From the NCBI GenBank assembly GCA_902702965.1, contig CACRXP010000038.1, positions 1,628,137-1,692,136 on the forward strand: 64,000 bases of DNA, written 5' to 3'. This DNA comes from Spirometra erinaceieuropaei. Its lineage: Eukaryota > Platyhelminthes > Cestoda > Diphyllobothriidea > Diphyllobothriidae. Shown here piece after piece: positions 1-61,600 of the stretch. Within the stretch, counting starts at the first letter, position 1. Each line of letters opens with the position of its first letter. Made by a program: the position numbers and the translations under genes. The notes beneath the pieces are model-generated. The model worked only from the letters and a program-made list of their open reading frames with translations, ran no database searches and was not told the DNA's origin.

Positions 1-934
1 TCCGATATCCCATAAAGACAGATTCTGAATTACCTGTCTGTTAAGAACTTTAAAATAAGATGATTCTCGAAGGCTTCTACCGAATTACTGTGTTCGGGTG
101 CTCCTTTTCACGAAGATGATCGTTTGGGTCACATGTGAAGACTCATTCAAACATCAAACTTCATTTTCGAGAAAAATGACTATCCACAACGAAATTCAGC
201 AACGAATATGCCTAGGATCAATAAGAAAACTTTCCTTAATAAGTAACCTCTTTAGAAAGTGCTTTATTACTGCACTCCATTGACGGATCTCTGTGTACTT
301 TGCATTTTTGCACGGTAAGGCCAAGTAAAAACTGACACTTTTGGCCTTTTCTCTCACGTTCCTAGACAATACTGTTTTTCTACCGTAAACGTAAGAACAC
401 GCCTTTTTCTATACATTGAGGTCATTTCCGCTGCTTGTGCTCGCTTTTAGACTCCGTTCTTCGATTATGAATGCACGACAGACCGCCCATATAAATGCTG
501 ATATTTTGCTGAAACTATTAGTGTTTTGCTCGTTCTATTTCTGAATAAGGTATGCACAGAAACTAAACTACACGACAAGTAGTGTTTCCTATGTTCAAGA
601 CTGCAAATGACCAATCGGTGGTGGTCATTTATGTGACATCAGATGGAATTTTCTAAACGGAAACACAGTTTCAGCCCACTTAAACGAAGGAATCCCTATC
701 TGCGTTATTACTGCTCTTTAGGGTACCCAATCGCACAGATCTACTAATTTGACATTTAGGAATTGAAAAAACCTCTGGTTTTCTTAAAATAATCTTTGTG
801 CTACCAGGTTGATTACCACGGTTAACATCGGACATAAAATTAATTTTCGAATTCGGCTAAATAAGTTTATTAAAACTCTCGCGGATAAATTACTATCCCT
901 TCAATGGAAGAGTCGCTCAGATGCGTAACCGGAG

Positions 935-5285: not shown

Positions 5286-6321
5286 GGACTAGGAGGGCTC
5301 GGGCCGTGTTATTTTACCGAGCCTCTCCGTGCATCCGCATATGGTCGAATAGGCCGATGTGATACTTGAATATCCTGGGTCAGCGCGGGCAGGGGGGGGT
5401 GAATGTCATATGTTGGTAGGGATACAGACAGTGGATCTCCGGTCACACTGTGATGGGCTTGCAGGCAACCTACCAGGTTGATTCGTGATCCGAATGGGCA
5501 GTCACAATTCGGGGACAGGTTGGCAGTGTGCCTACGTTTTGGTGGTGGTGGTGGCGGACGTCCCCTGTGCCCTAACTGTGTCCCCGTTGCCGGAGCGAAG
5601 CAGGAAGGTCCGACACCGGCAAACCAGGGCGGCAACGTGATGCCATTAGTAAGGACAGGTGGGAGGCCTGTCTTTCCTGACGAGAATTCTGGTGGTTTGT
5701 GCTGTAGAGAAGTTGGGTTAGTGGTTTTGACATTGCAGTTAGTCGGGATGTGTCAACCGAGGTCAGCGCATGTCCCGAATGTCGGTTGACAGGAGGGACA
5801 TATTGGCATGGCCTGGGTTTCGATGGCGGCGGCGGCGTTGGTCCTCGACATTCGCGTCTTCCATGTCTCTTGGTTCGCTCTAACCTCCCCCCCCCCTCGG
5901 AGGTGGTTGGTCTGGCTTTTACAACAGTTCATCAAGCCTACCGGCCCAGCTGAACAGCTTCTTCGGTGTACTCCTTGCTTTCCATATGCATGGACGAGAT
6001 TATCAGGGCGTCCGCGTGTAGTCAATTTTCCCATCTTTCTTACCAACACGCATAGCAATGCCACTTTTGTCAAGGCAGTAGTCCTGCATATTCCCAGTTT
6101 TGCGTGGGGGGAGGGAGAATATCGTGGCGATTCGGGATTGGGTGTTGTAGCCTATCAAAGGATCCACTCACGCTTGGGGAGCCGAGTGCCCACTTCATCA
6201 CGGATCTAAATGTTTACTATGACGAAAATCATCAGGCAGGCGAGCCTGTCGACAGCTGGCACCTGCATGGAGGTCGCAGTACTCATCCACTGGCGTTAGT
6301 CGGTACAAAAGGGGTGAGGTC

Positions 6322-6800
6322 GAAATCCTCGCAAGGGGTGACAACCGCGTGAGCCGCGAGCTGCTCGAGCCATGGTTCTCAGGCCCGCAATCCATCAACA
6401 AGCGCAATGACTTCCCGGTACCATATTCCCTGCTAGGATTTTCCCTGGGCAGGGGAATCAATCACGCGGAGAGGGCGCGGGCGAGCAATTATCTCAGTGA
6501 CAGTGGGCCAATTTGCGGAGCAATCGTCACACCAGCATCCAGCACGGATGACGAAATCACGGCCATTAACGACTCGGACTGACAATCCACCATTGCATCA
6601 ATTACGACCTCAGCGGTGGTTGTGGGAGCTGCTAATTACAGTGTGCATATGGCCCCACGGCAGCCACGTTCTATAAATACTGTACTCCTTGTGCCACCAT
6701 CACCTTTATCTGTGACTGTCTCTGATGATGGATTCGAGTGAGAATCCGAAACGTCGGGCCAATAAATTTCTTGTTCCATTGATCGCATCTTCGTCTTCCA
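6322..6800 (+). mobile_element. Penelope-like element, 3' fragment (P1)
   Basis: The fragment starts inside the GIY-YIG endonuclease end of the PLE protein (EILARGDNRVSRELLEPWFS, then GPQSINKRNDFPVPYSLLGF). This is collinear with the minus-strand copy at 25222-26190. The frame continues to ITAINDSD and a stop at 6582, followed by a 3' UTR with tataaatactgtactccttg, a hammerhead-like core at 6722-6755 and a tail aataaatttcttgttccatt ending in cttcgtcttcc. It is 5'-truncated, with about 87 intact codons. PLEs are retroelements whose protein joins a telomerase-like reverse transcriptase to a GIY-YIG nuclease. Confidence 0.8.
6722..6755 (+). ncRNA. Candidate hammerhead-ribozyme core in PLE tail
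   Basis: CTGATGA (6722-6728), one extra T, then stem II GGATTC (6730-6735), loop GAGTGA and GAATCC (6742-6747), then GAAA (6748-6751) and CGTC. CUGANGA, stem II and GAAA are the conserved hammerhead core. The stem is a perfect 6 bp. PLEs are known to carry hammerhead motifs in their tails. The T between CTGATGA and the stem is atypical, and ACGT could act as a very short stem III only between two tandem or paired copies. Activity is inferred, not shown. Confidence 0.55.
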
Positions 6801-7112
6801 AAACTGATATCTTCTACGTGTTTGGGCTTGAACAATCGAAGGAGAAAAGGTGCATTGATCATTGCATGTCCGCCTCGGTCAGGCTGTGTGGCGCAGAGCC
6901 GTCAGCACATAAGTCGTAGATGCTTATTCGTGGTGCTTTCGTTTCTGACTTAATAGGACGAACATGGAGTAGCCGCCAATCAGCCCCATACCCGATTCTG
7001 ATTTTAGGCTGCTTTTCACGGTAGGCCTTCATAGGCATCACAGAGAACATGTGGTTGAAGAGGATAGGATTGAGCGTACAACTCTTCTTCACCCCCTTCT
7101 TCATCTCACATG

Positions 7113-8104
7113 CAGTATGTGGGCTAATTCATGAAGTGTCAACCGAAATTCCGAAATGTGTTTTCGTTTCCAAAAGATTAACTAAGTAGGGTTGTAAAAC
7201 CAGTCAGCCTGCAGCATAATTCTATAATATTCCAGTTACCTCAGAATGCCGGATTGCGAACGGACTTCCATCCAGCCGCATGCAAAAACCACACTCTGTA
7301 AAAATGACTACTTATGTAGCATGAATTTTCCTCATTAATTTTCGATGCCCTTAAATATTCAATTATATTTCATGGAAGGCATGCATAAAAATATCCATTC
7401 TTTTGCTCATTCGGTAGAAAATTACGTCCTCCTCCAATCTTATACTCAAGGGAGGGTATTATTAGGTTTTTGAAAACTTTTTCAATTTCCGAATAATTTT
7501 TAACCCGCTCTACCGTTACGCTTGGATTCAGGGTTTTTAAACTACAAACCGTATATTTTCTGCGTACGGAAAACCACGCATTTCTCTACGGCAATAAAGG
7601 GGATCATATAGGGTTCATAAAATTTAACAGTGGATTTGATCCATGTTGTTAACTTTACAAGCCACTTAGGTAAATGCAGAGACCTGACGTTTTATCAACA
7701 GCCATTTTACAGTATTAAAAAGTTTCACAATTAGAAACTTTTTTAAAACCGAATTGTGTTCCTCGTTCGAGTAAAAAACTAGAGGAAGGCGTAATTATCT
7801 GCCGAATGAGCGAAAGAATGAATGTTTTTATGTACTTTTTCCATGAAATATAATTGGACATTTAAGGGCATCGAAAATCAATGAGAAAAAGTCATGTTAC
7901 TTAAGAAGTCATTTTTTACAGAGTGTAGTTTTTGAATGCAACCGGAAGGAAGTTTTTTCGAAAGCCGGCATCCTGCGGTAACTGACATATTATAGATTTC
8001 TGTTGCAGGCTGACTAGTTTTACAACCCTACTTAATTTATCTTTTCGAAACGAAAACGCATTTCGGAATTTCGGTTGACATTTCGTGAGTTAGCCCACCT
8101 ACTG
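7113..8104 (+). mobile_element. M1 foldback element, full copy 1
   Basis: This non-coding element of about 990 bp starts cagtatgtgggctaattcat and ends gttagcccacctactg, followed by TA. The left arm (about 7113-7480) and the right arm (about 7735-8104) are imperfect reverse complements. For example, the left arm carries attttcgatgcccttaaa and the right arm carries its complement tttaagggcatcgaaaat. About 240 bp of unpaired core separates them and fixes the orientation. CAGT-type ends next to TA are the hallmark of Tc1/mariner-mobilised MITEs, so this is inferred to be a non-autonomous element of that class. The base pair before the left end is TG, a decayed TA. Confidence 0.85.
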
Positions 8105-8107
8105 TAT

Positions 8108-9050
8108 ATCTGAGACCGATCCACTCGCAATAACGAGTGACAACATACTGCCCCGTGGTTGTCTGGTCGTCTTTGTAAATCGTACTGGAAATCCGAGTTT
8201 CAGTATTGATTTCCAGCTTCCATAATTGCTCACTCTGTCAAGCGTCTTCGTGGGCTCAACAAAGGACGTGGAGATACTGGGCCTCAGTTCTTGGAGATCT
8301 ACATGCAGTTTACGGACTTCAAAGGTCATGTCCTTGGTTCGACGGTGTTTACGGAATATGCATTCTATTTTTGGAAGAGGTTTCGGCTAGACACAGGAGT
8401 GTGGATTCCTCCATTGCAGGCAGACTCACGTTAACTTCCAAGGGTACCTATTTTCGTATCTTAACCGTGATCGTAACCATGGTAGCCCAAACCCCAATGT
8501 TAACCATCATACCCCTGGGCCTCCTAATCCTAACGCTAATCCCCCTGTGATACGGGGTGTCCGTATTCCCCTGCCCATCCGGAGTTTCTGACCCGGGTGT
8601 GTGCCCGGGCGATTCACTAATAGGAGGGAAGAAGTGCCTTGCTTGCAATACTGAATTGAGAGGTCCCGCGACGATTGTCGCAGACCTAGCAGTCCGCTTT
8701 CGTTTGTAGAGGTGAACAATTATGACATCCCCGAAGTCCCGTAGTAATAGCGAGATCAGTCTGCTCAGATCCTGCGAACCATCGCGTTTGTAGACTTCTG
8801 ACGAAAGTGAGTCGACTCTAAGTGCTTTTTTGTTGCAATTCTTCGCGCTCTCCTGGTTTTCTGTTGTAAAGATCCGCATGTGGTGTAATCGGTTGCTGGC
8901 TGTCTCAAGTGATTGTAAATATGCGATCAAGGGCAGACGCGAGGTGCTCGGCCAAACACTCCCTTAATCTTCATTTTCTCCAAGTGTAGATTTATGCCGT
9001 CAGAACTGGTCAGCGAGGCAGTCCGTTGCGTCAAGAGCTGTGGGCTACTA
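8108..9050 (-). other. Unrecognised inter-element segment with a 160-codon minus frame
   Basis: This segment lies between two M1 copies and is less AT-rich than they are. The minus strand is open for about 160 codons (8448-8930) and again for 76 codons (8099-8329), with no recognisable motif, no splice context and no methionine-led start in good order. It could be the remains of an unknown mobile-element protein or chance. I assign no function. Confidence 0.3.
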
Positions 9051-9177
9051 GAATGTGTCCGAGAAGTTATTGATCTCCGCGAGGACTAAGTATCCTCCGA
9101 GTTCTTTGACCTTGCCGGTCAACCAACCATTGTGCGTCTTCCTCAGCTGTTTTTGCAGCAATTACTTTCCCCATCGA

Positions 9178-9826
9178 AAGAATAGGGTTTTAAAAAAGTT
9201 TCTAATTGTGAAAATTTTTAATATCATAAAATGGCCGTTGATAAAACGTCATGTCTCTGCATTTACCAACGTGGCTTGTAAAGTTAACAATACTGATCAA
9301 CTCCAATGCTACATTTTATGAACCCTATATGGGCTCCTCTTATTACCGTAGAGAAATGTGTGGTTTTTCGTACGCGGAGAATATACGGCTTGTAGTTTGG
9401 GAATCCTGAATCCAAGTATAACGGCAGAGCCGGTTCAAAATTATTCGGGAATTGGAAAATTTTTTTAAAACCGAATTATACTCTTCTTTTGAGTATGAAA
9501 TTGGAAGAAGGCGTGATTTCCTACCGAATGAGCGAAAGATTGAATATTTTTTATGCAGGTTTTCCATGAAATATAATTGGACTTTTAGGGATATCGAAAA
9601 TTAATGAGGAAAATGCCTGCTACTTAAGTAGTCATTTTTACAAAGTGCAGTTTTTGCATGCATCCGCAAGGAAGTTCATTCGAAATCCGGCTTCCTGAGG
9701 TAATTGACTTATTATAGAATTATGCTGCAGGCTGATTAGTTTGACATCCTTACTTAAATAATCTTTCCGAGACGAAAACACATTTCGGAATTTCGGTTGA
9801 CACTTCATGAGTTAGCCCACCTACTG
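9178..9826 (-). mobile_element. M1 foldback element, half copy
   Basis: The core is in the opposite orientation to the copy at 7113 and is followed by one intact arm ending gttagcccacctactg before TA at 9827. The other arm is missing, and homology begins abruptly inside the core near 9178. Confidence 0.8.
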
Positions 9827-9949
9827 TATGTTCCCCCTTGTGTGTGAACTCCTATTGTGTGCCCTCGAGGGCCAGGTCGTGCATGTGGCGCGCGCAGACG
9901 GGCTCTCTAACTCTGTCAGTCATTGCATCCGTTCACCGCTCCAGACATC

Positions 9950-10400
9950 TGATCGGCCGGGACAGCGGCTGGGGCCTGTGAATGGGAAGAGAGAGTGAGG
10001 TCGACAACTCAGCGCATTTTCTTCACCATAAACCACCTGACGCGCTCGAAGCCATCACGGCGCGCTAAAAGTACGGTGGAGGGCTGCCAACTAACAGGAT
10101 AACTCGAACCTCGTAGTCCGACCCTGTGTGGAGTGGCGGACTGGTGGCTGCAAGGACTCCTTCTTAATGTGACTTTTATGGCATTCCCAATTAGAAGGAG
10201 CAGAGCCGGGTGGGGCGGCACGCCTAGAGGCGGCTCCAGACGCGCCCTCCCCGGTCTTCTTGACTGTGTCTTGACACCGGGACCAGTTGGGAAGGGAGGA
10301 GAGAATGCGGCGATGCTGCTAAAGTCTTCTATCCTATAAACTAATTCACGTGCAAGTCATCATCCCTGCCCACATCCTGCTGTAAAGCACACGGTGGACG
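9950..10400 (+). repeat. Family C GC-rich repeat, copy
   Basis: The sequences cggcacgcctagaggcggct, ccccggtcttcttgactgtg, ttgacaccgggaccagttgg and cctataaactaattcacgtg follow the order of the family's best copies (57900 and 22450). The left part, with an inverted piece (10009-10100), corresponds to a segment also seen at 2620-2790. Confidence 0.6.
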
Positions 10401-10402
10401 TA

Positions 10403-11380
10403 CAGTGAGTGACCTATCTCATGAAATGTTGGCTGAAATTCTGAAATGCGTTTTCGACTAGGAAGGATTACTTGGTCGCGCTTGTAAAACATAGTCTTAT
10501 ATCATTTCGGACTTGGCAGGATGTCGGCTTTTAAATGCTCTACTTTTCAATCTCCTGTAGAAGGGTCGCTCGGTAAAAAATGACTACATAAGTAGCATGC
10601 ATTTTTCCTATTGATTTTCGATGGTCTTGGAAATTCAAATATATTTTATAGAAACCATAAACAAAAATAGGCTTTCTTTTAGTCAATCAATTGAGAATCA
10701 CGTCTGCTTTATATTTTATACTTAGAGAAGGAGTATAATTGGGTTTCAAAAAGTTTCTAATTATGAGATTTTTTAAGACCATGCAATGTCCATTGACACA
10801 GCATCGTACCTGGCCGTTTACCACCGCTCCTCGTGAAATGTACAACATGGTCCGCATCCATTACAAAATTTTATGGACTGTGTATGGTATCTCTTTAATG
10901 CCATAGAAAAATATGTCATTTTCTTTACGCGGAACGCATGCACCTTGTAGAGTTCAATAACTAAGCGCTAATGCTACGAGTGATCAGGCTCAAAATTATT
11001 CGGCAATTAGGAAACTTTTAAAAACCTAATTATACTCCTTCCTTAAATATAAAATATAAAGAAGACGTGATTCTCTATTGATTGACTAAAAGAAAGCATA
11101 TGCTTGTTTATGGTTTCTATAAAATATATTCGAATTTCCAAGACCATCGAAAATCAATAGGAAAAATGCATGCTACTTATGTAGTCATTTTTTACCGAGC
11201 GACCCTTCTACAGGAGATTGCAAAGTAGAGCATTTAAAAGCTGACATCCTGCCAAGTCCGAAATGTTATAATAGTATGTCTTAAGATAATCAGTATTACA
11301 ACCGCGACCAAGTAATCCTTCCTAATCGAAAACGAATTTCGGAATTTCAGCCAACATTTCATGAGATAGGACACTCACTG
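10403..11380 (-). mobile_element. M1 foldback element, subfamily 2, full copy
   Basis: The element begins cagtgagtgacctatctcat after TA and ends atgagataggacactcactg before CA (decayed TA). Both arms are present and complementary over roughly 360 bp (attttcgatggtcttggaaa against tttccaagaccatcgaaaat). Its end sequence and arm differ consistently from the 7113/43354 type and match the copy at 16729. The core appears inverted relative to copy 1. Confidence 0.85.
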
Positions 11381-11984
11381 CAGTTGAGACCGAACACCTG
11401 GGGTTCGATCCCCAGCAGATTATTCTGAGGGGAGGTCGAGATGGAGTTCATTTTGCCCACACCCTAATCTACTTTAGCAGGTAGAAGATATTGTTGGGAC
11501 TCTATAACCTAATTATTGGTTCTCATTGTTAGTTTTCAGCCGTACTTACTTCGCACAAGTTTATGGGTAGTTATTTGCAGTAGTAGTTAGCTTGTGAGAC
11601 AACCTGTAACTAAGCAAGCAATAAATTTGTAAAAAACCGCCTGACTGATTTTTTTCTTCATTAACTCCTCTAAGTGCTCTTGACAGCACGAAGACTTGCT
11701 GTCTCAAAGCATGATCTTTAAGTTAGTAACTGCGGCTGCGATCAACCTCATGTTGAGAGGGGATCCTTGGGGATGCCTAATCTTTTTGGGGTCAAACGTA
11801 CAGTTAGGAAACGTTCCCTGACATAAAAGTGTGATGTACGCATCATAACGCAAAGACCTCTGCGGTAATTTTTAAATATAACTTTGAACCTTGTGGCTGG
11901 AAGGACGTTCTGCGCACGTGTGAATTGGTAAAAGTCCTGCTTGCACTTAGTGCACTTGTCCTTACTTCTGCTAGCAATTGTACA

Positions 11985-12110
11985 TGTACGCGAAAAAGAG
12001 GAGACTTCGGCAAAAAACCTAGTTGTGTACTCTTGAACTTTTAAATTTATCACGCTGACCCGTCATCAGACGAAATGAAGAAGGGGGTGGGAGATGGGAC
12101 TGTCACACTA
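11985..12110 (-). repeat. Dispersed repeat end shared with 50255-50400
   Basis: On the minus strand, CTTCATTTCGTCTGATGACG, then GGTCAGCGTGATAAATTTAA and GAGTACACAACTAGGTTTTT. The same order occurs on the minus strand at 50255-50400. It may be a second retroelement tail. Confidence 0.5.
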
Positions 12111-13035
12111 GAGCACTTGGGGGGAGGGGAGGCAGTTGCAGATCACACATCCGTGGGTGGGCTGGACGGAGAGTTATGATAGGTGTCGAAGTAGGGGGCG
12201 GGGGGGAGTGGTTGAGACTCGCTGTATGTAGGAAAGGGAGCAATGATCGTTGGGTGAGACTTCAGGCGGCCGGAGGAGGGGGGGATTGCTGATTTAGGAT
12301 GCGCGTGGAGAGTCACTGAACCGCGCAGGCAGCTCTTCGCTCTCACTGTCAGGGTTGGCATGGCGGTAGAGACCGCCCCCGTGCCGGAGATATTCTCGCG
12401 CCTGCCCTACACTGGTCGTAATGACGCATTGGGCATTCCCTAAATTGAAGCCGTGATCATATCTAAGGGCATGCACAAAGAGGCCTTGCAAAAGATCACG
12501 CTGGCCTGTCTTCGTTATTTACGAATCCCAAGGCGCTGGCCTGTGTAGCCAACATGCTCACCAGTTCAATTAGGTAATGGGATGCGGTAATGGCGTTATT
12601 TCGCTGTTCATCCGCAGGTATGGGATCCTTGCACTATTGCGTGCAAGAGAGAGGCTGGATTATGGGCGGTACTTATTCAAACCGAGGTAGTTGCTGGGCG
12701 ATCTCTTTTGGACGGGTAGTAAACTTTCCGCGGCCTCGTCTCCCCATTGCGGCTGAAGCCTAAAGTTTGTCCCTGACATCTGAGCCATTTGCACCCGAAG
12801 CTGGTTGTGCATCCGTTATACTGGAATAGCCGACATAAGTAAACCAGCTGTCTGTTAAGCGGATCACTCCTACAGGCTGTAGCGAAATTCCATGTGTGAA
12901 AGAGTTTGCATGCCGCTTTCTTCGTGAGCTGCAGCATTCTTTCTACCGTAGTCGCGGACAACCGCGGTACTAGGTCATTTCCTATAAACACTTGTTTAAG
13001 GTCACAAGCATTCGGTCCTATTTGCGAGGAGGTGT

Positions 13036-13487
13036 GTTGCAGGAAGCAGTTCAGAAGAAGAAAATGCGATCGTTGGAACAACAAGAAGTTTATTTGCCTG
13101 ACGTTTCGCTGTCCCATCAGTCACAGATAAGGGTGATAGAGGTGCAAGAAGTGCAGTATTTATAGGACACGGTTGCTATGCCACTACATGAGTACTACAA
13201 TTAATAGCTCGTACTTAATACGGTGAGGGCTTGTCCGTCCACATCGCAGTCGCTGATGACTGTGATTTCATCATCTTTGTTGATTCTTGGCGTGATAACG
13301 ACTGGGAAATTCTGCTCACTGTCAATCAAACTGTTAGTCGTCCGCGCCCTCTCCCGCGTAGCTAATTAATCTACCTGGGCTGTCAGCACACAATATGGAG
13401 GTGGGAGGTCGTTGCGCCTGTTAATCGATAGCGGGCCGGATAGCCATAACGCAAGCAGCTCGCGGCTCACGCAGTTGTCACCTCCTG
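13036..13487 (-). mobile_element. Penelope-like element, 3' fragment (P2)
   Basis: Read on the minus strand, the protein end GDNCVSRELLALWLSGPLSI then NRRNDLPPPY is collinear with the other PLE copies. It is followed by the tail with gcagtattta-like sequence and a degraded hammerhead core at about 13101-13122 (CTGATG, reduced stem, GAAACGTC). It ends caagaagaa-like at 13036-13072 (ggaagcagttcagaagaaga on the plus strand). It lies head-to-head with the plus-strand copy P3. Confidence 0.75.
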
Positions 13488-13572
13488 AGATAGTTGTAGT
13501 ATGCATTTGCTTGCAGGGCAACTGGGTTTTATAGATATTGCACTTCTTGTGCCTATCGGATGACGGGTTCTA

Positions 13573-14147
13573 GTGAAAGGTCGAAAGCATAAGGCAAATG
13601 GCTATCCGAGGGCATTCATAAGTCGCTGCCTACGCGGTCGCCACCAGAGAACTCGAACATCAGCGCCACCGACGGTATGGTATTCTCTGCCATACATCAA
13701 GGGCGTTTCAGAAGCGACCGAACGGATTGCTGTGGAGCTATGTGTTGGAATTGCACACCGCCCCAAAGCCACCATGCGTAATAGCGTCATGAAAATCAAA
13801 GACCGGTTAAAGCCTGAAGAGCAATCTGGAGTTGTGTATCGCATTCCGTGTAAAAATTGCCCTGTTACTACACAGGACAGACTGGATGCATGCTCGGATC
13901 GCACATACACGAACATAGGCGGGCTGTGCGGCGAGGCGACGCGTCATCACAAGCGGCCGCTCACACCTACGAAATTTATCACGAGTTTAACTTCACAGCC
14001 ACCAAAATAGTCGTCCACGCCGGAAACAAAACAGGCCGAAAATTGATTGAAGCCTCAGATGAGAACTTGGTCAATCGATTTATCGATCTGGCGCCGGCGT
14101 ACAGAGCCCTGCGTAGTCACCTCCAGTCTTCCGCCGTCGGTCGATGA
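13573..14147 (+). pseudogene. PLE GIY-YIG endonuclease remnant (frameshifted)
   Basis: The first frame (to about 13860) gives KANGYPRAFISRCLRG, then YSLPYIKGVSEATERIAVEL, SGVVYRIPCKNCP. The second frame resumes at about 13860 with YYTGQTGCMLGSHIHEHRRA, HTYEIYHEFNF, TKIVVHAGNKTGRKLIEASD and a stop after 14144. GVVYRI...YTGQTG is the GIY-YIG core, and the histidine, arginine and glutamate of the following helix and strand (EHRRAV, GRKLIEA) are in place. A one-base shift near 13860 separates the two tyrosine blocks, so the protein is broken. It is collinear with the copy at 25222-26190. Confidence 0.85.
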
Positions 14148-14198
14148 TTGAGCCTACATGCCTTATAACTGCCGCTTGTTCTGTTGCTGCCACTACCT

Positions 14199-14232
14199 CT
14201 GACGATGGACTCCTGTACGAGTCTGAAAGCTC
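14199..14232 (+). ncRNA. Candidate hammerhead-ribozyme core in PLE tail
   Basis: CTGACGA (14199-14205), T, then GGACTC (14207-14212), loop CTGTAC, GAGTCT (14219-14224) and GAAA (14225-14228). Against the copy at 6722, one stem pair changes from T-A to C-G while pairing is kept, and the outermost pair becomes G-T. The loop sequence is different. The position relative to the PLE stop codon and TTC tail is the same. Confidence 0.5.
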
Positions 14233-14265
14233 AGGACAATAAACAAAGTGCTCCGGTGCTCGAAT

Positions 14266-14332
14266 CTTCTTCTTCTTCCTCTTTTCTTCTTCTTATTCTT
14301 CTTCTTCTTCTTCTTCTTCTTCTTCTTCACTT
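14266..14332 (+). repeat. (TTC)n microsatellite at PLE 3' end
   Basis: Nearly pure TTC repeats follow the PLE tail aataaacaaagtgctccggt. Other PLE tails end in shorter TTC runs, so this array probably grew from the element's own 3' terminus. Confidence 0.8.
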
Positions 14333-16720: not shown

Positions 16721-16728
16721 ATGAAATA

Positions 16729-17800
16729 CAGTGAGTGGCAGATCTCATGAAATGTGAGCTGAAATTCTGAAATGTGTTTTAGACAAGGAGGGATTACTTA
16801 GATTTGGTTCTAACACTGATTATCTTGCGGCAGGATGTTAGCTTTTAACTGCACTGCTTTGCAATCCCCTGTAGAAACTACACTCGGGAAAGATGACTAC
16901 TCAAACAACATGCATTTTTTACATTGATTTTCGATGGTCTTGTAAATTCAAATATATTTTATAGAAATCACGAACGAAAATACGCTCCCTTTCAGTAGTT
17001 CGATAGAGAATCGCGTCATTATTACATTTTATACTCGACGGAGGAGTATAATTAGGCTGCATTAACGCTTAGTGATTTTAGTCCACAAGATGCATGCGTT
17101 CCGCGTAAAAAATGTCATATTCTTCTATGCCTTCGAAAGATACCCTATAGAGTCCATAAAATTTTGCAACGGATGCTGGCCATGCTGTGCATTTCATGAA
17201 AAGCAATGGTATGAATGGACAGTGCACAGTCTTAAAAAGCCTTATAATGAAAAACTTTTTAAAACCCAATTATACTTCTTCTTCGAGTATAAAATATAAT
17301 GATGACGCGATTCTCTATCAAACGACTGAGAGAAAGCATAGAAAAAGGCATAGAAGAATATGTGATTTTCTTTGCCCAGTACCCATGCACCTTGGAGGTT
17401 GAAATCACTGAGCGCTAAGGTAACAAATAATCAGACTCCAAATTACTATGCAATTAGAAAGCTATTTTAAAACCTAATTATACTCCTTCGTCGAGTATAA
17501 AATATAAAGATAACGCGATTCTCTATCAAACGACTGAAAGGGAACGTATTTTCGTTCGTGGTTTCCATGAAATATATTTGTATTTGCAAGACCATCGAAA
17601 ATAAATGTGAAAAATGCATGTTGTTTGAGTAGTCATTTTTACCGATTACAGTTTCCACAAAAGATCACAAAGCAGTGCAGTTAAAAGCTGCCATCCTGCC
17701 GCAAGATAATCAGCGTTAGAATCAAATCTAAGTAATCCTTCCTGGTCGAAAACACATTTCAGAATTTTAGCTCACATTTCTTGAGATCGGTCACTCACTG
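16729..17800. mobile_element. M1 foldback element, subfamily 2, full copy
   Basis: TA precedes and follows the element, which starts cagtgagtggcagatctcat and ends gagatcggtcactcactg. At 1072 bp it is longer than the others because internal core and arm segments are partly duplicated near 17040-17480. The arms are complementary. Short open frames inside it are chance readings of the palindrome. Confidence 0.85.
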
Positions 17801-18299
17801 TATATGTGTGCAGAGGTAGTATCGACGAAGACTGGTCGGCCTGAAATCCTATAGAGAAAGTGCTGTGGTTTTCAATTTTATACTTTTAAGATCATATAGT
17901 GTAATAAACGCATGAAAGAATAAATATAGAAAGTTCTGTGTACCCGGCTGTAAGCTTCTTTAATTTTAGCTTATGTATTTACTGTGTTTCACCTGCATAC
18001 GTTGTCTCTCATTTCTCACTCTTACTACTAACTGTCTACCAATCGATTCTTATATGAACATGAAATACGAACCTAATTAGGACTGGTAGGATTAGTCTTC
18101 ATGTCACGTTTAAACTGAAATCGACAATTCTCCGCGCGACAAAGTGAACATCACTAGTATGAATATGGGGATATTTATACGAAGTTAAAACTCTTGAATT
18201 ATCAGATCACTAAAATCAGCACCGAACGCCATATTATGTAAATTGCTTTTGCTTTAAACTAAATAACAGGTGTTTTGGTAGATTTTGAATAATCCATTT

Positions 18300-23424: not shown

Positions 23425-23500
23425 AGGCGAGCCCCAGGAAGCAGATCAGAAGAAGAAGATGCGACTTCTGAAACGAGAGGTTTGTCGGCCTGATGTTTAA
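23425..23500 (-). mobile_element. Penelope-like element, tail only (P4a)
   Basis: The sequence ggaagcagatcagaagaaga and the following cgacttctgaaacgagaggt then tcggcctgatgtttaag are the reverse complement of the PLE 3' tail. No coding part is attached. The sequence stops just before an oppositely oriented tail at 23521. Confidence 0.6.
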
Positions 23501-23520
23501 GATTTTCGCTCGGATGCATT

Positions 23521-23665
23521 ACCAGAGGACCATCTTATCTGCAACGGTCTCTGATGGTGGGTCCAAATGGGAATCCGAAACGTCGGGTCAATGAACCTCG
23601 TGTTCCAGCGATCACATAATAATAATTCCCTTCTTCTTCTTCTTCTTCTTCATCTGAAACGCCGC
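23521..23665 (+). mobile_element. Penelope-like element, tail only (P4b)
   Basis: The sequence catcttatctgcaacggtct leads into CTGATGG (23551-23557), T, then GGGTCC...GAATCC with one mismatch, and GAAACGTC at 23577. It continues to ggtcaatgaacctcgtgttc and a TTC run at about 23632-23656. The ninth core base is G instead of A, so this copy's core is probably dead. Confidence 0.65.
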
Positions 23666-25110: not shown

Positions 25111-25143
25111 ACGTTTAGGATTCCTGCTCGAACCTATCGTCAG
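25111..25143 (-). ncRNA. Degraded hammerhead-like core in PLE tail
   Basis: On the minus strand CTGACGA (25143-25137) is followed by T, AGGTTC, loop GAGCAG, GAATCC and TAAAC-GTC. The stem keeps five of six pairs (one G-T). The GAAA box reads TAAA, so catalysis is unlikely in this copy. Confidence 0.4.
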
Positions 25144-50072: not shown

Positions 50073-50250
50073 GGGCTCGTGGCCCAGTGGTTAGAGGCTT
50101 GGACTTCTAACCAACAGGTCGCGAGTTCGAGCCTCGGGTGTTCTACACTTCGGAGTTGGGTATGACTGGCTGACGACGGCTAATAAGCCAGAAATGGCCA
50201 TTCCAGTCTCCCTTGTCTTCGTTGGTAATGTCATTCTACCGTAATATATA
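50073..50250 (+). mobile_element. SINE-A, reference copy with clear tRNA promoter boxes
   Basis: The sequence gggctcgtggcccagtggtt gives box A TGGCCCAGTGG at 50080-50090. The box B region AGTTCGAGCC is at 50124-50133. Between them is an anticodon-arm-like segment gacttctaaccaacaggtc. The body taagccagaaatggccattc and cttgtcttcgttggtaatgt follows. The spacing fits a pol III internal promoter of tRNA origin. There is no CCA end and the acceptor stem does not close, so it is a SINE rather than a working tRNA. Confidence 0.8.
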
Positions 50251-61109: not shown

Positions 61110-61600
61110 ACAGGCGAGTTCCAGGAAGCAGTTCAGAAGAAGAAGATGCGATCGCTGGTGAGGTGACATTTGAGGTGACAACCGCGTGAGCCACGAGCAG
61201 CTCGAATCCCGGTCCTCAGGATCGCAATCTATCAACAAGCGCCATTACCTCCCGCTACCATATTCGGTGCTGAGGCATTCTCTGTGCAGGGGAATCAGTC
61301 ACGTGGGGAGGGTGCCGGCGAGCAGCAATCTCAGTGACAATGACCCAAATGGCTGAGAAATCATTACGCCAACACCCATCACGGATGATGAAATTGCGAC
61401 AATTATTCGGACGCGGACTGACAAGTCCTCATCGCATCAAGTACGATCTCTCGCGGTGATCGTGAGAGCTGTTAATTATAGTACGCACGTGGTCCCACAG
61501 CAGTTACTTGCTACAAATACTGCAGTCTTTGTGCCTTCCCTACCCTTATCTGCGACTGTCTTCGACGATGGGTTCGAGTCAGAATCGAAATCAGTGTTGG
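61110..61600 (+). mobile_element. Penelope-like element, 3' fragment with inverted tail at its left (P9)
   Basis: Bases 61131-61152 (ggaagcagttcagaagaaga, agatgcgatcg) are a minus-oriented PLE tail end. From about 61180 the sequence is plus-oriented: GAGGTGACAACCGCGTGAGC, then caatctatcaacaagcgcca, matching the P1 coding end but with several stops. The 3' UTR has caaatactgcagtctttgtg and a mutated core (TCGACGA, GGGTTC-GAGTCA-GAATC, GAAA) at about 61562-61591. Confidence 0.7.

Follow-up and report, generated by a model that had tools for sequence, protein, structure and literature searches.

A minimal hammerhead motif on the start codon of a tapeworm Penelope-like element, with end patterns that suggest integration from two start sites

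Introduction

Why should the tails of Penelope-like elements (PLEs) in a tapeworm carry the core of a hammerhead ribozyme with almost no stem III, and how does such a motif relate to the protein-coding element around it? The question arises from a window of 64,000 nucleotides of the Spirometra erinaceieuropaei genome, the whole stretch of DNA analysed here, in which a first-pass annotation had recognised two strong copies and six weaker versions of the motif. Minimal type I hammerheads of PLEs were reportedly described by Cervera and de la Pena in 2014 and by Lunse, Weinberg and Breaker in 2017, and the kind of hammerhead is already published and not new. PLE hammerheads are described as minimal type I motifs without stem III, located in pseudo-LTRs and thought to self-cleave as dimers (PMC7761336, PMC7229834).

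Results

The motif in the window is a real, minimal type I hammerhead of PLEs (Table 1). Both strong copies had been placed exactly, at 6722 and 14199, and the stem change reported between them was also correct. From 6722, copy 1 reads CTGATGA-T-GGATTC-gagtga-GAATCC-GAAA-CGTC; from 14199, copy 2 reads CTGACGA-T-GGACTC-ctgtac-GAGTCT-GAAA-GCTC, with one stem II pair changed from T-A to C-G and another from G-C to G-U. Both have the CUGANGA and GAAA core around stem II by which minimal PLE hammerheads are recognised. A descriptor with a 6-bp stem II and GAAA matched 2 window sites (shuffle mean 0.01, maximum 1), and 2 sites still matched when 3 bp of stem I were added, compared with 0 in 300 dinucleotide shuffles. 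The identification as a hammerhead is thus upheld by a core and stems beyond chance and, as described below, by double changes in all three stems.

Table 1. PLE fragments, hammerhead motifs and tails in the window (positions counted from its first letter).
Feature	Position	Strand	Parts, evidence or remark
PLE copy, C-terminal ORF fragment (aa 734-827 of P0001)	6304..6579	+	tblastn E=4.4e-22
Minimal PLE hammerhead, copy 1	6718..6759	+	Sequence, alignment, pair counts; stem I 6718-6721/6756-6759; core 6722-6728; stem II 6730-6735/6742-6747; GAAA 6748-6751; stem III half (ACGU) 6751-6754; predicted cut after C6755
Copy 1 tail: ATG 6728-6730 and first ~24 PLE ORF codons (MDSSENPKRRANKFLVP...)	6728..6798	+	Translation, end mapping
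Decayed tail, stem II deleted	13067..13152	-	Behind ORF fragment 13491-13228
PLE ORF fragment upstream of copy 2	13582..14123	+	tblastn, P0001 aa 600-688; P0118 aa 616-702
Minimal PLE hammerhead, copy 2, AGCU stem III	14196..14235	+	Sequence, alignment, pair counts; stem I 14196-14198/14233-14235; core 14199-14205; stem II 14207-14212/14219-14224; GAAA 14225-14228; predicted cut after C14232
Copy 2 tail: ATG 14205-14207 and first ORF codons (MDSCTSLKAQDNK...)	14205..14275	+	Translation, end mapping
Two decayed tails, head to head, 26 nt apart	23462..23613	.	C3 at 23525 (-) and 23551 (+)
Decayed hammerhead, TAAA replacing GAAA	25106..25147	-	Tail profile E=2.8e-26; tails PLE fragment 26190-25240
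Decayed hammerhead, core TCGACGA	61524..61590	+	Behind ORF fragment 61174-61449

A tail profile search of the window (E<=1e-3) recovered four of the six weaker versions, those at 25143, 23551, 61562 and 13122 (profile anchor 13114), but not those at 13557 and 33292. All four carry broken motifs, the core at 23551 (+) having decayed to CTGATGG, and positions 23525 (-) and 34351 (-) hold two further relatives, also decayed. The window tails at 13114 and 14199 probably do not stem from a single insertion, as their stem III letters differ and they have no duplication in common.

Throughout the genome, a looser hammerhead pattern matched 17,821 times (8793+9028), compared with 2,722 matches (1417+1305) for the reversed pattern. 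Stem III is a 4-nt palindrome in two forms, ACGU and AGCU, which bears out the suggestion that the motif suits a dimer; its near absence from the single copy had been called unusual, whereas published accounts treat the lack of stem III as the hallmark of PLE hammerheads. The pattern GAAAGSTC, which admits GC or GG, matched 2,516 times (1221+1295) as against 1+0 times reversed; among 100 matches listed, 94 had the palindromic GC, which is two changes away from CG, and 6 had GG, which is one change away. Rfam 15 hammerhead models gave no match in the window and short stretches, either at the gathering score or at E<=10; models with a full stem III probably overlook this minimal form.

The structural selection proposed in the first-pass annotation gains support from double changes in stem I (2 of 4 pairs), stem II (3 of 6 pairs) and the palindromic dimer stem III, amounting to 6 of 12 pairs in 16 alignment rows hand-picked for diversity out of 71 copies. 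Shuffles reached 6 double-changed pairs in 3 of 500 trials and slid structures at most 2, while most of the double changes divide a few subfamilies and hence represent few independent events. The covariation alignment of stem II proposed as a check speaks for pairing on the chosen rows. A scan of all column pairs in the 71 unselected copies passed 54 pairs, but owing to subfamily history unrelated columns score equally well, and we did not count the scan as proof. All six stem II pairs are kept in only 46 of the 69 copies with strict spacing, and an abundant subfamily, GGCCTC/GAGACC (12 of the 94 GC sites among the matches listed), has a C.A mismatch in this stem.

The assignment to PLEs is confirmed by PLE protein fragments found upstream at six of the eight annotated sites and by a genomic copy, L064, whose PLE ORF starts on the motif. 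L064 is open from the motif's ATG across the reverse transcriptase (RT) region to the start of the GIY-YIG domain, after which it runs into N, and gene models P0001-P0005 start with MDSSRNPKRQ or MMDSSRNPKRQ. The RT domain (PF00078) scored 29.7 bits in L064 with a cut-off of 29.6, and 28.4 bits in P0001 and P0002, just under the cut-off (E=1.6e-6); GIY-YIG (PF01541) scored 22.6 in P0002, equal to the cut-off of 22.6, 22.3 in P0001 and 19.2 in L064, where the match is shortened by N. Pseudo-LTRs containing the ORF start occur as inverted copies and, in one locus (L014), as direct copies separated by 260 nt; the genome searched showed no complete tandem of full PLE units. Open frames as long as 3257 aa hinted at fused tandem units, a reading rejected for the longest of them (L064), which owes its length to N. 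Searches for outside relatives of the PLE in viral and bacterial contig collections, and of the PDB by sequence with L064, returned none.

The extra T before stem II is not the oddity it had been taken for: it is the U of the AUG starting the PLE ORF, as in the lizard element PAc discussed below. Likewise, the 3' tail is indeed a PLE tail, but one made of coding sequence from the ORF start, comprising the first ~24 or ~37 codons; its AATAAA reads as Asn-Lys codons. End mapping of 70 tails placed 37 ends at +68..84, 24 at +107..115 and 9 elsewhere. The copy 1 tail belongs to the short class (+71), and the copy 2 tail enters a TCT repeat from 14265, leaving its extent uncertain, with the alignment stopping at +39 or +71 in two mappings.

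Neighbouring tail pairs within 5 kb were mostly head to head (12 of 15 and 11 of 13 in two counts), an excess that weakened with a wider profile (24 of 46 pairs, with 10 tail to tail). When tails were typed by aligning them locally to a single reference, L064, 17 of 24 head-to-head pairs could be classified and 7 could not; 16 of the 17 combined one short with one long tail (binomial p about 1e-4), the exception, L020, being short/short. Target-site duplications, counted if at least 8 bp long and no more than 8 nt from either tail end, flanked 11 of the 24 pairs as against 5 of 552 mispaired controls, and all 11 duplication-bearing pairs were mixed. Three single copies had a stub of the opposite type inside a duplication, one of the three being weak. 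These patterns suggest that each insertion comprises two reverse transcriptions, one per target strand, each with its own start site. Divergence between arms, a measure meant to separate one RNA template from two, ranged from 1.2 to 23.8% in the 12 of 22 pairs that could be compared.

Discussion

We consider it likely that a minimal type I hammerhead sits on the start codon of an endonuclease-bearing PLE that integrates from two start sites, in which cleavage, dimer formation, control and the order of steps are deduced from these patterns. The AUG is made up of the final A of CUGANGA, the U that follows and the opening G of stem II. Instead of a stem III of its own, the motif offers a 4-nt palindrome (ACGU or AGCU), and therefore any cut should need a dimer of two copies, either tandem units or two RNAs, and would fall 25 nt past the AUG. 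Because such a cut would separate the AUG from the body of the mRNA, cleavage is probably held back, and a stronger competing hairpin might be one way of restraining it. Reverse transcription would begin within the ORF of a downstream unit, either between roughly +70 and +84 or between roughly +107 and +117, which would explain both why the motif appears in 3' tails and why these hold the first ~24 or ~37 codons with the hammerhead. Integration would most likely proceed by a staggered target cut and one reverse transcription per target strand, the two using different start sites, after which the two cDNAs would be joined head to head within one target-site duplication.

Could the motif be conserved for reasons other than a ribozyme? 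Conservation of the ORF N-terminus (M-D-S-..-P-K-R-Q) alone, with an incidental hairpin, would fit the in-frame position of the motif at the ORF start and the retention of P-K-R-Q in most copies of the two ACGU families. We find this quite improbable, since both halves of stem II change along with the residues (MDSSRNPKRQ, METRKFPKRQ, MDSCTSLKAQ), stem I has double changes even though its 5' strand lies upstream of the ATG, and the hammerhead core is among the invariant alignment columns. Slightly better placed, yet still unlikely, is a plain hairpin in which CUGAUG pairs with CGUCAG atop stem II and masks the AUG, serving for instance as a switch for translation or binding. Isolated RNA does prefer this core-burying fold (-15.8 vs -10.2 and -16.6 vs -10.7 kcal/mol); it is the minimum-energy fold, wholly or partly, of the four single copies tried, and 94.3% of cells pair in the 16 rows. 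Its own six pairs, however, contain zero double changes, the AGCU copy loses two inner pairs and retains the dimer palindrome, and neither the fixed GAAA nor CUGANGA would be necessary for such a role.

For the paired insertions, Arkhipova et al. (2013) proposed, for rotifer elements whose junctions are palindromic, self-priming on an antisense template (PMC3846280), and head-to-head pairs might arise in the same way rather than from two target-primed reactions. We give this only a small chance here, because an arm copied from an arm would be expected to have the same tail length and 16 of the 17 typed pairs do not. Might the short and long tails instead be decay products or alignment artefacts, and their mixing chance? 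Typing against a single reference with 7 of 24 pairs untyped leaves some room for this, but it is highly improbable given that two end classes cover 61 of the 70 copies, that duplications at both ends are rare in mispaired controls, and that so mixed a set has the low binomial probability given above. On balance, we lean towards two reverse transcriptions at a staggered cut on one sense RNA or RNA pair, from start sites that are fixed but differ from each other (about +75 and about +112), e.g. one site per protomer of an enzyme dimer; the "optional tail" would in that case show which side each protomer had served, and no antisense template would be needed. RNA folding near the two start sites was no better than in shuffles (z -0.85).

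Two known systems come close. In PAc, the Poseidon element of Anolis carolinensis, the tail is likewise described as the first ORF codons with the AUG within the motif (Frangieh et al. 2024, PMC11167929). The same account gives PAc two RT start sites with an optional 30-40 bp tail between them; the start used most often lies 111-118 bp inside the ORF and parallels the far class of the tapeworm (+107 to +117). It reports no cut ends in RNA-seq and normal insertion of ribozyme mutants, and describes the start site in vitro as alike on both strands, whereas in the tapeworm the two sites are shared out, one to each side of a single insertion. For Penelope elements of Adineta vaga, an inverted pLTR (pseudo-LTR) is reported to complete the insert, with a 9-bp target-site duplication; the pLTR spans the first 12 codons, or 22 with the tail, and head-to-head is the most frequent arrangement (PMC3846280). 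A 31-bp tail is there "optionally present" at one of the inverted pLTRs, and the words "one of" are near to our mixed rule, although those authors prefer antisense-template self-priming and our one-short-one-long count suggests two separate starts. The end analysis recasts the puzzle of how Penelope elements produce head-to-head inserts with an optional tail as a rule open to counting in any genome and to tests with the purified enzyme.

As a ribozyme, the tapeworm motif has no basic difference from published minimal PLE hammerheads and extends this kind to another animal, adding that two palindromic types of stem III coexist in one genome and that the start-codon overlap occurs in a tapeworm. 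Since that overlap is common to tapeworm and lizard, it is old or repeatedly kept. Metazoan retrozymes share the type I hammerhead, which they carry in ~300-bp tandem repeats, and amphibian retrozymes are described as having a weak stem III and working better as dimers (PMC7229834). We rejected a retrozyme as host of the motif: retrozymes are short non-coding tandem repeats, whereas the tapeworm motif sits on a protein-coding PLE.

The motif and its position on the PLE ORF

Both strong copies of the hammerhead-like motif that the first-pass annotation had claimed are present exactly as described. The full descriptor with stem I detected these 2 sites against 0 in 300 dinucleotide shuffles, in which stem II and GAAA alone reached a mean of 0.01 and a maximum of 1; an Rfam search gave no hammerhead match. 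We searched the genome (758.7 Mb in 1932 contigs) with the pattern CTGATGAN{10,30}GAAAC and obtained 8793+9028 matches, compared with 1417+1305 for the reversed control. Among the 100 matches listed, all on contig C1, 99 were typed and one was omitted as overlapping another at the same place. The 31-nt spacing was found in 69 of the 99, 46 of them with all six stem II pairs intact. These 69 strict-spacing sites were taken with their flanks and aligned in register; one locus, L018, by letters a chance match, was dropped, and both window copies and L064, the best long copy, were added, yielding a 71-copy set. The best 120 related proteins listed come from Sparganum proliferum and S. erinaceieuropaei, and Penelope occupies 10.41% of the published S. 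erinaceieuropaei v2.0 assembly (PMC8166898).

The motif reads stem I strand (GTCT), CTGATGA, T, stem II of six pairs with a six-base loop, GAAA, CGTC, and stem I strand (AGGC). The T before stem II, previously called extra and unusual, forms an ATG together with the last core A and the first stem II G. The reading frame from this ATG is MDSSRNPKRQANKALVPAIVSPSS, in many copies RLLPGTRLFASI; decayed copies lack the ATG, some having ATA or ACG. The frame that this ATG opens in L064 extends across the reverse transcriptase (YVDDT) and reaches the start of GIY-YIG; the 2767 N that follow inflate its apparent open-frame length in the genome search. The S. proliferum gene models begin with MDSSRNPKRQ (P0001) or MMDSSRNPKRQ (P0002-P0005), and their reverse transcriptase and GIY-YIG domains score at the Pfam cut-offs or slightly under them. 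The label of 3' tail therefore needs to be amended: the tail sequence is the ORF start and is coding, with AATAAA reading as Asn-Lys codons. PAc, the PLE of the lizard Anolis, has the same layout, with the ORF running from the start of stem II and the cut 26 bp past the start codon (PMC11167929); the predicted tapeworm cut lies 25 nt after the ATG. P0002-P0005 are near-identical 786-aa proteins with neighbouring locus tags, which suggests a recent tandem array.

Covariation and the stem III palindrome

We aligned 16 rows hand-picked for diversity from the 71 copies, including both window copies. On these chosen rows 92.7% of cells pair, and double changes occur in 6 of 12 pairs (stem I, 2/4; stem II, 3/6; palindromic stem III, 1/2), in agreement with the structural selection proposed from the window alone. 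Six double-change pairs were reached in 3 of 500 shuffles, and slid structures gave at most 2. These counts call for caution: a crude double-change filter is passed by 54 column pairs of the 71 unselected copies, the majority lying outside any stem because subfamilies have a shared history. None of the six pairs specific to the rival hairpin CUGAUG/CGUCAG, a better fold than the hammerhead for the isolated RNA, shows a double change. The GGAAAC/GTTTCC form of the stem accompanies a second PLE family, since the upstream ORF fragment of locus L058 is closer to the protein P0118 than to P0001.

In stem III, the copy at window position 14199 carries AGCU rather than ACGU. The motif pattern containing GAAAGSTC, allowing only GC or GG, has 1221+1295 matches genome-wide (control, 1+0), with GC in 94 and GG in 6 of the 100 listed. 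Five of these six GG sites share stem II letters with the ACGU family and thus look like single mutations, while the listed GC sites cover several stem II subfamilies (GGACTC/GAGTCT, 32; GGCCTC/GAGACC, 12; GAACTC/GAGTTC, 5). Since GC differs from CG by two steps and GG by one, the excess of GC fits a palindrome that was kept, though the spread of one ancient double change would give the same picture. The C.A mismatch at pair 3 of the GGCCTC/GAGACC subfamily argues against strict pairing.

Tail ends and minus-then-plus pairs

Tail ends were mapped by alignment to L064, itself left out (n=70). They fall at +68 to +84 in 37 tails and at +107 to +115 in 24, the other nine ending at 30-39 (5), 58 (2), 101 (1), and 189 (1). 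PAc has two adjacent reverse-transcription start sites, the commonest start, at one or other of them, being 111-118 bp into the ORF, and its optional 30-40 bp tail is the stretch between both (PMC11167929). The tapeworm and lizard elements thus match closely across phyla.

Among the matches listed, minus-then-plus, head-to-head order was found in 12 of 15 neighbouring pairs of strict matches within 5 kb on C1 and in 11 of 13 such pairs in a mostly AGCU list from C1-C9 (pooled 23/28 versus an expected quarter, p about 4e-10). In a wider profile of 106 matches from the fetched loci and the window, 24 of 46 neighbour pairs are minus-plus and 10 tail to tail. Exact duplications of at least 8 bp, lying 8 nt or less from each of the two tail ends, flank 11 of the 24 pairs, compared with 5 of 552 mispaired flanks. 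Requiring an alignment score of at least 25, we typed 49 tails as short (60-90) and 38 as long (98-120), leaving 19 untyped. Both tails were typed in 17 of the 24 pairs, the other seven being left out of this count: 16 are mixed short/long and one is short/short (L020), where independence predicts 49% mixed (p about 1e-4). All 11 duplication-bearing pairs are mixed. Ten of 45 single tails have a flank 9-mer or longer repeated upstream, and three of these carry an inverted stub just inside (L039, strong; L021; L023, weak with a score of 12.0), each of the opposite end class to its main tail, which backs the mixed rule as supporting evidence only. The ORF-richer arm, judgeable in 10 of the 24 pairs, is short-tailed in six and long-tailed in four.

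Probable mode of integration and possible role of the hammerhead

Arkhipova et al. (2013) reported that inverted pseudo-LTRs (pLTRs) come with a duplication and that one of them carries an optional 31-bp tail; the mechanism they preferred was self-priming from an antisense template (PMC3846280). Under self-priming, one arm would be a copy of the other, and tails of equal length would be expected; 16 of the 17 typed pairs are mixed. The mixed rule fits instead a pair of target-primed starts, one at each of two fixed sites: each insertion would probably involve two reverse transcriptions, each from a different start site. PAc cleaves and extends both target strands in vitro, and Frangieh et al. 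noted no strand difference in start site (PMC11167929), a result compatible with two target-primed starts if strand choice is free but the two starts of a single event differ. The one-short-one-long pattern is not stated as a rule in the portions available of PMC11167929, PMC3846280, PMC7229834, PMC7761336, PMC12910113, and PMC8166898, the nearest wording being a tail on 'one of the inverted pLTRs' (PMC3846280).

The studied tails extend beyond the predicted cut, and therefore the templates were uncut at that hammerhead. PAc ribozyme mutants insert normally in vitro, PAc hammerhead cleavage requires the protein, and cut ends were not seen in RNA-seq (PMC11167929). Our best guess is a dimeric cleavage of tandem transcripts, gated by the protein, that would withdraw spent or surplus RNA from translation.

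Other repeats

In the hammerhead-like motif within the SINE, stem II is 4 bp long and mismatched (C.A) at the base, and stem III has 2 bp and a palindromic GGCC loop. A SINE-type descriptor identified 1 window site, by letters this motif, against 0 in 300 shuffles. Its relatives in the window and loci, 46 at E<=1e-3, are mostly decayed and without covariation because they are all one family; 16 of them lie within the window.

Further features in the window and in locus L014
Feature	Coordinates	Remarks
tRNA-like SINE (by letters)	window 50080-50250	
SINE motif, full type I hammerhead-like core	window 50164-50208	stem I GACTGG/CCAGTC, CTGACGA, GAAA
Dispersed repeats with long inverted arms	window 7108-8107, 10485-11283, 16726-17803 and others	arms up to 352 nt, 87% complementary; resemble non-autonomous palindromic elements
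Small tandem of PLE tails	L014:2079-2530	two tails in direct repeat, 260 nt apart, and one inverted tail; would allow a hammerhead dimer; the coding Ser run contains expanding TCT repeats
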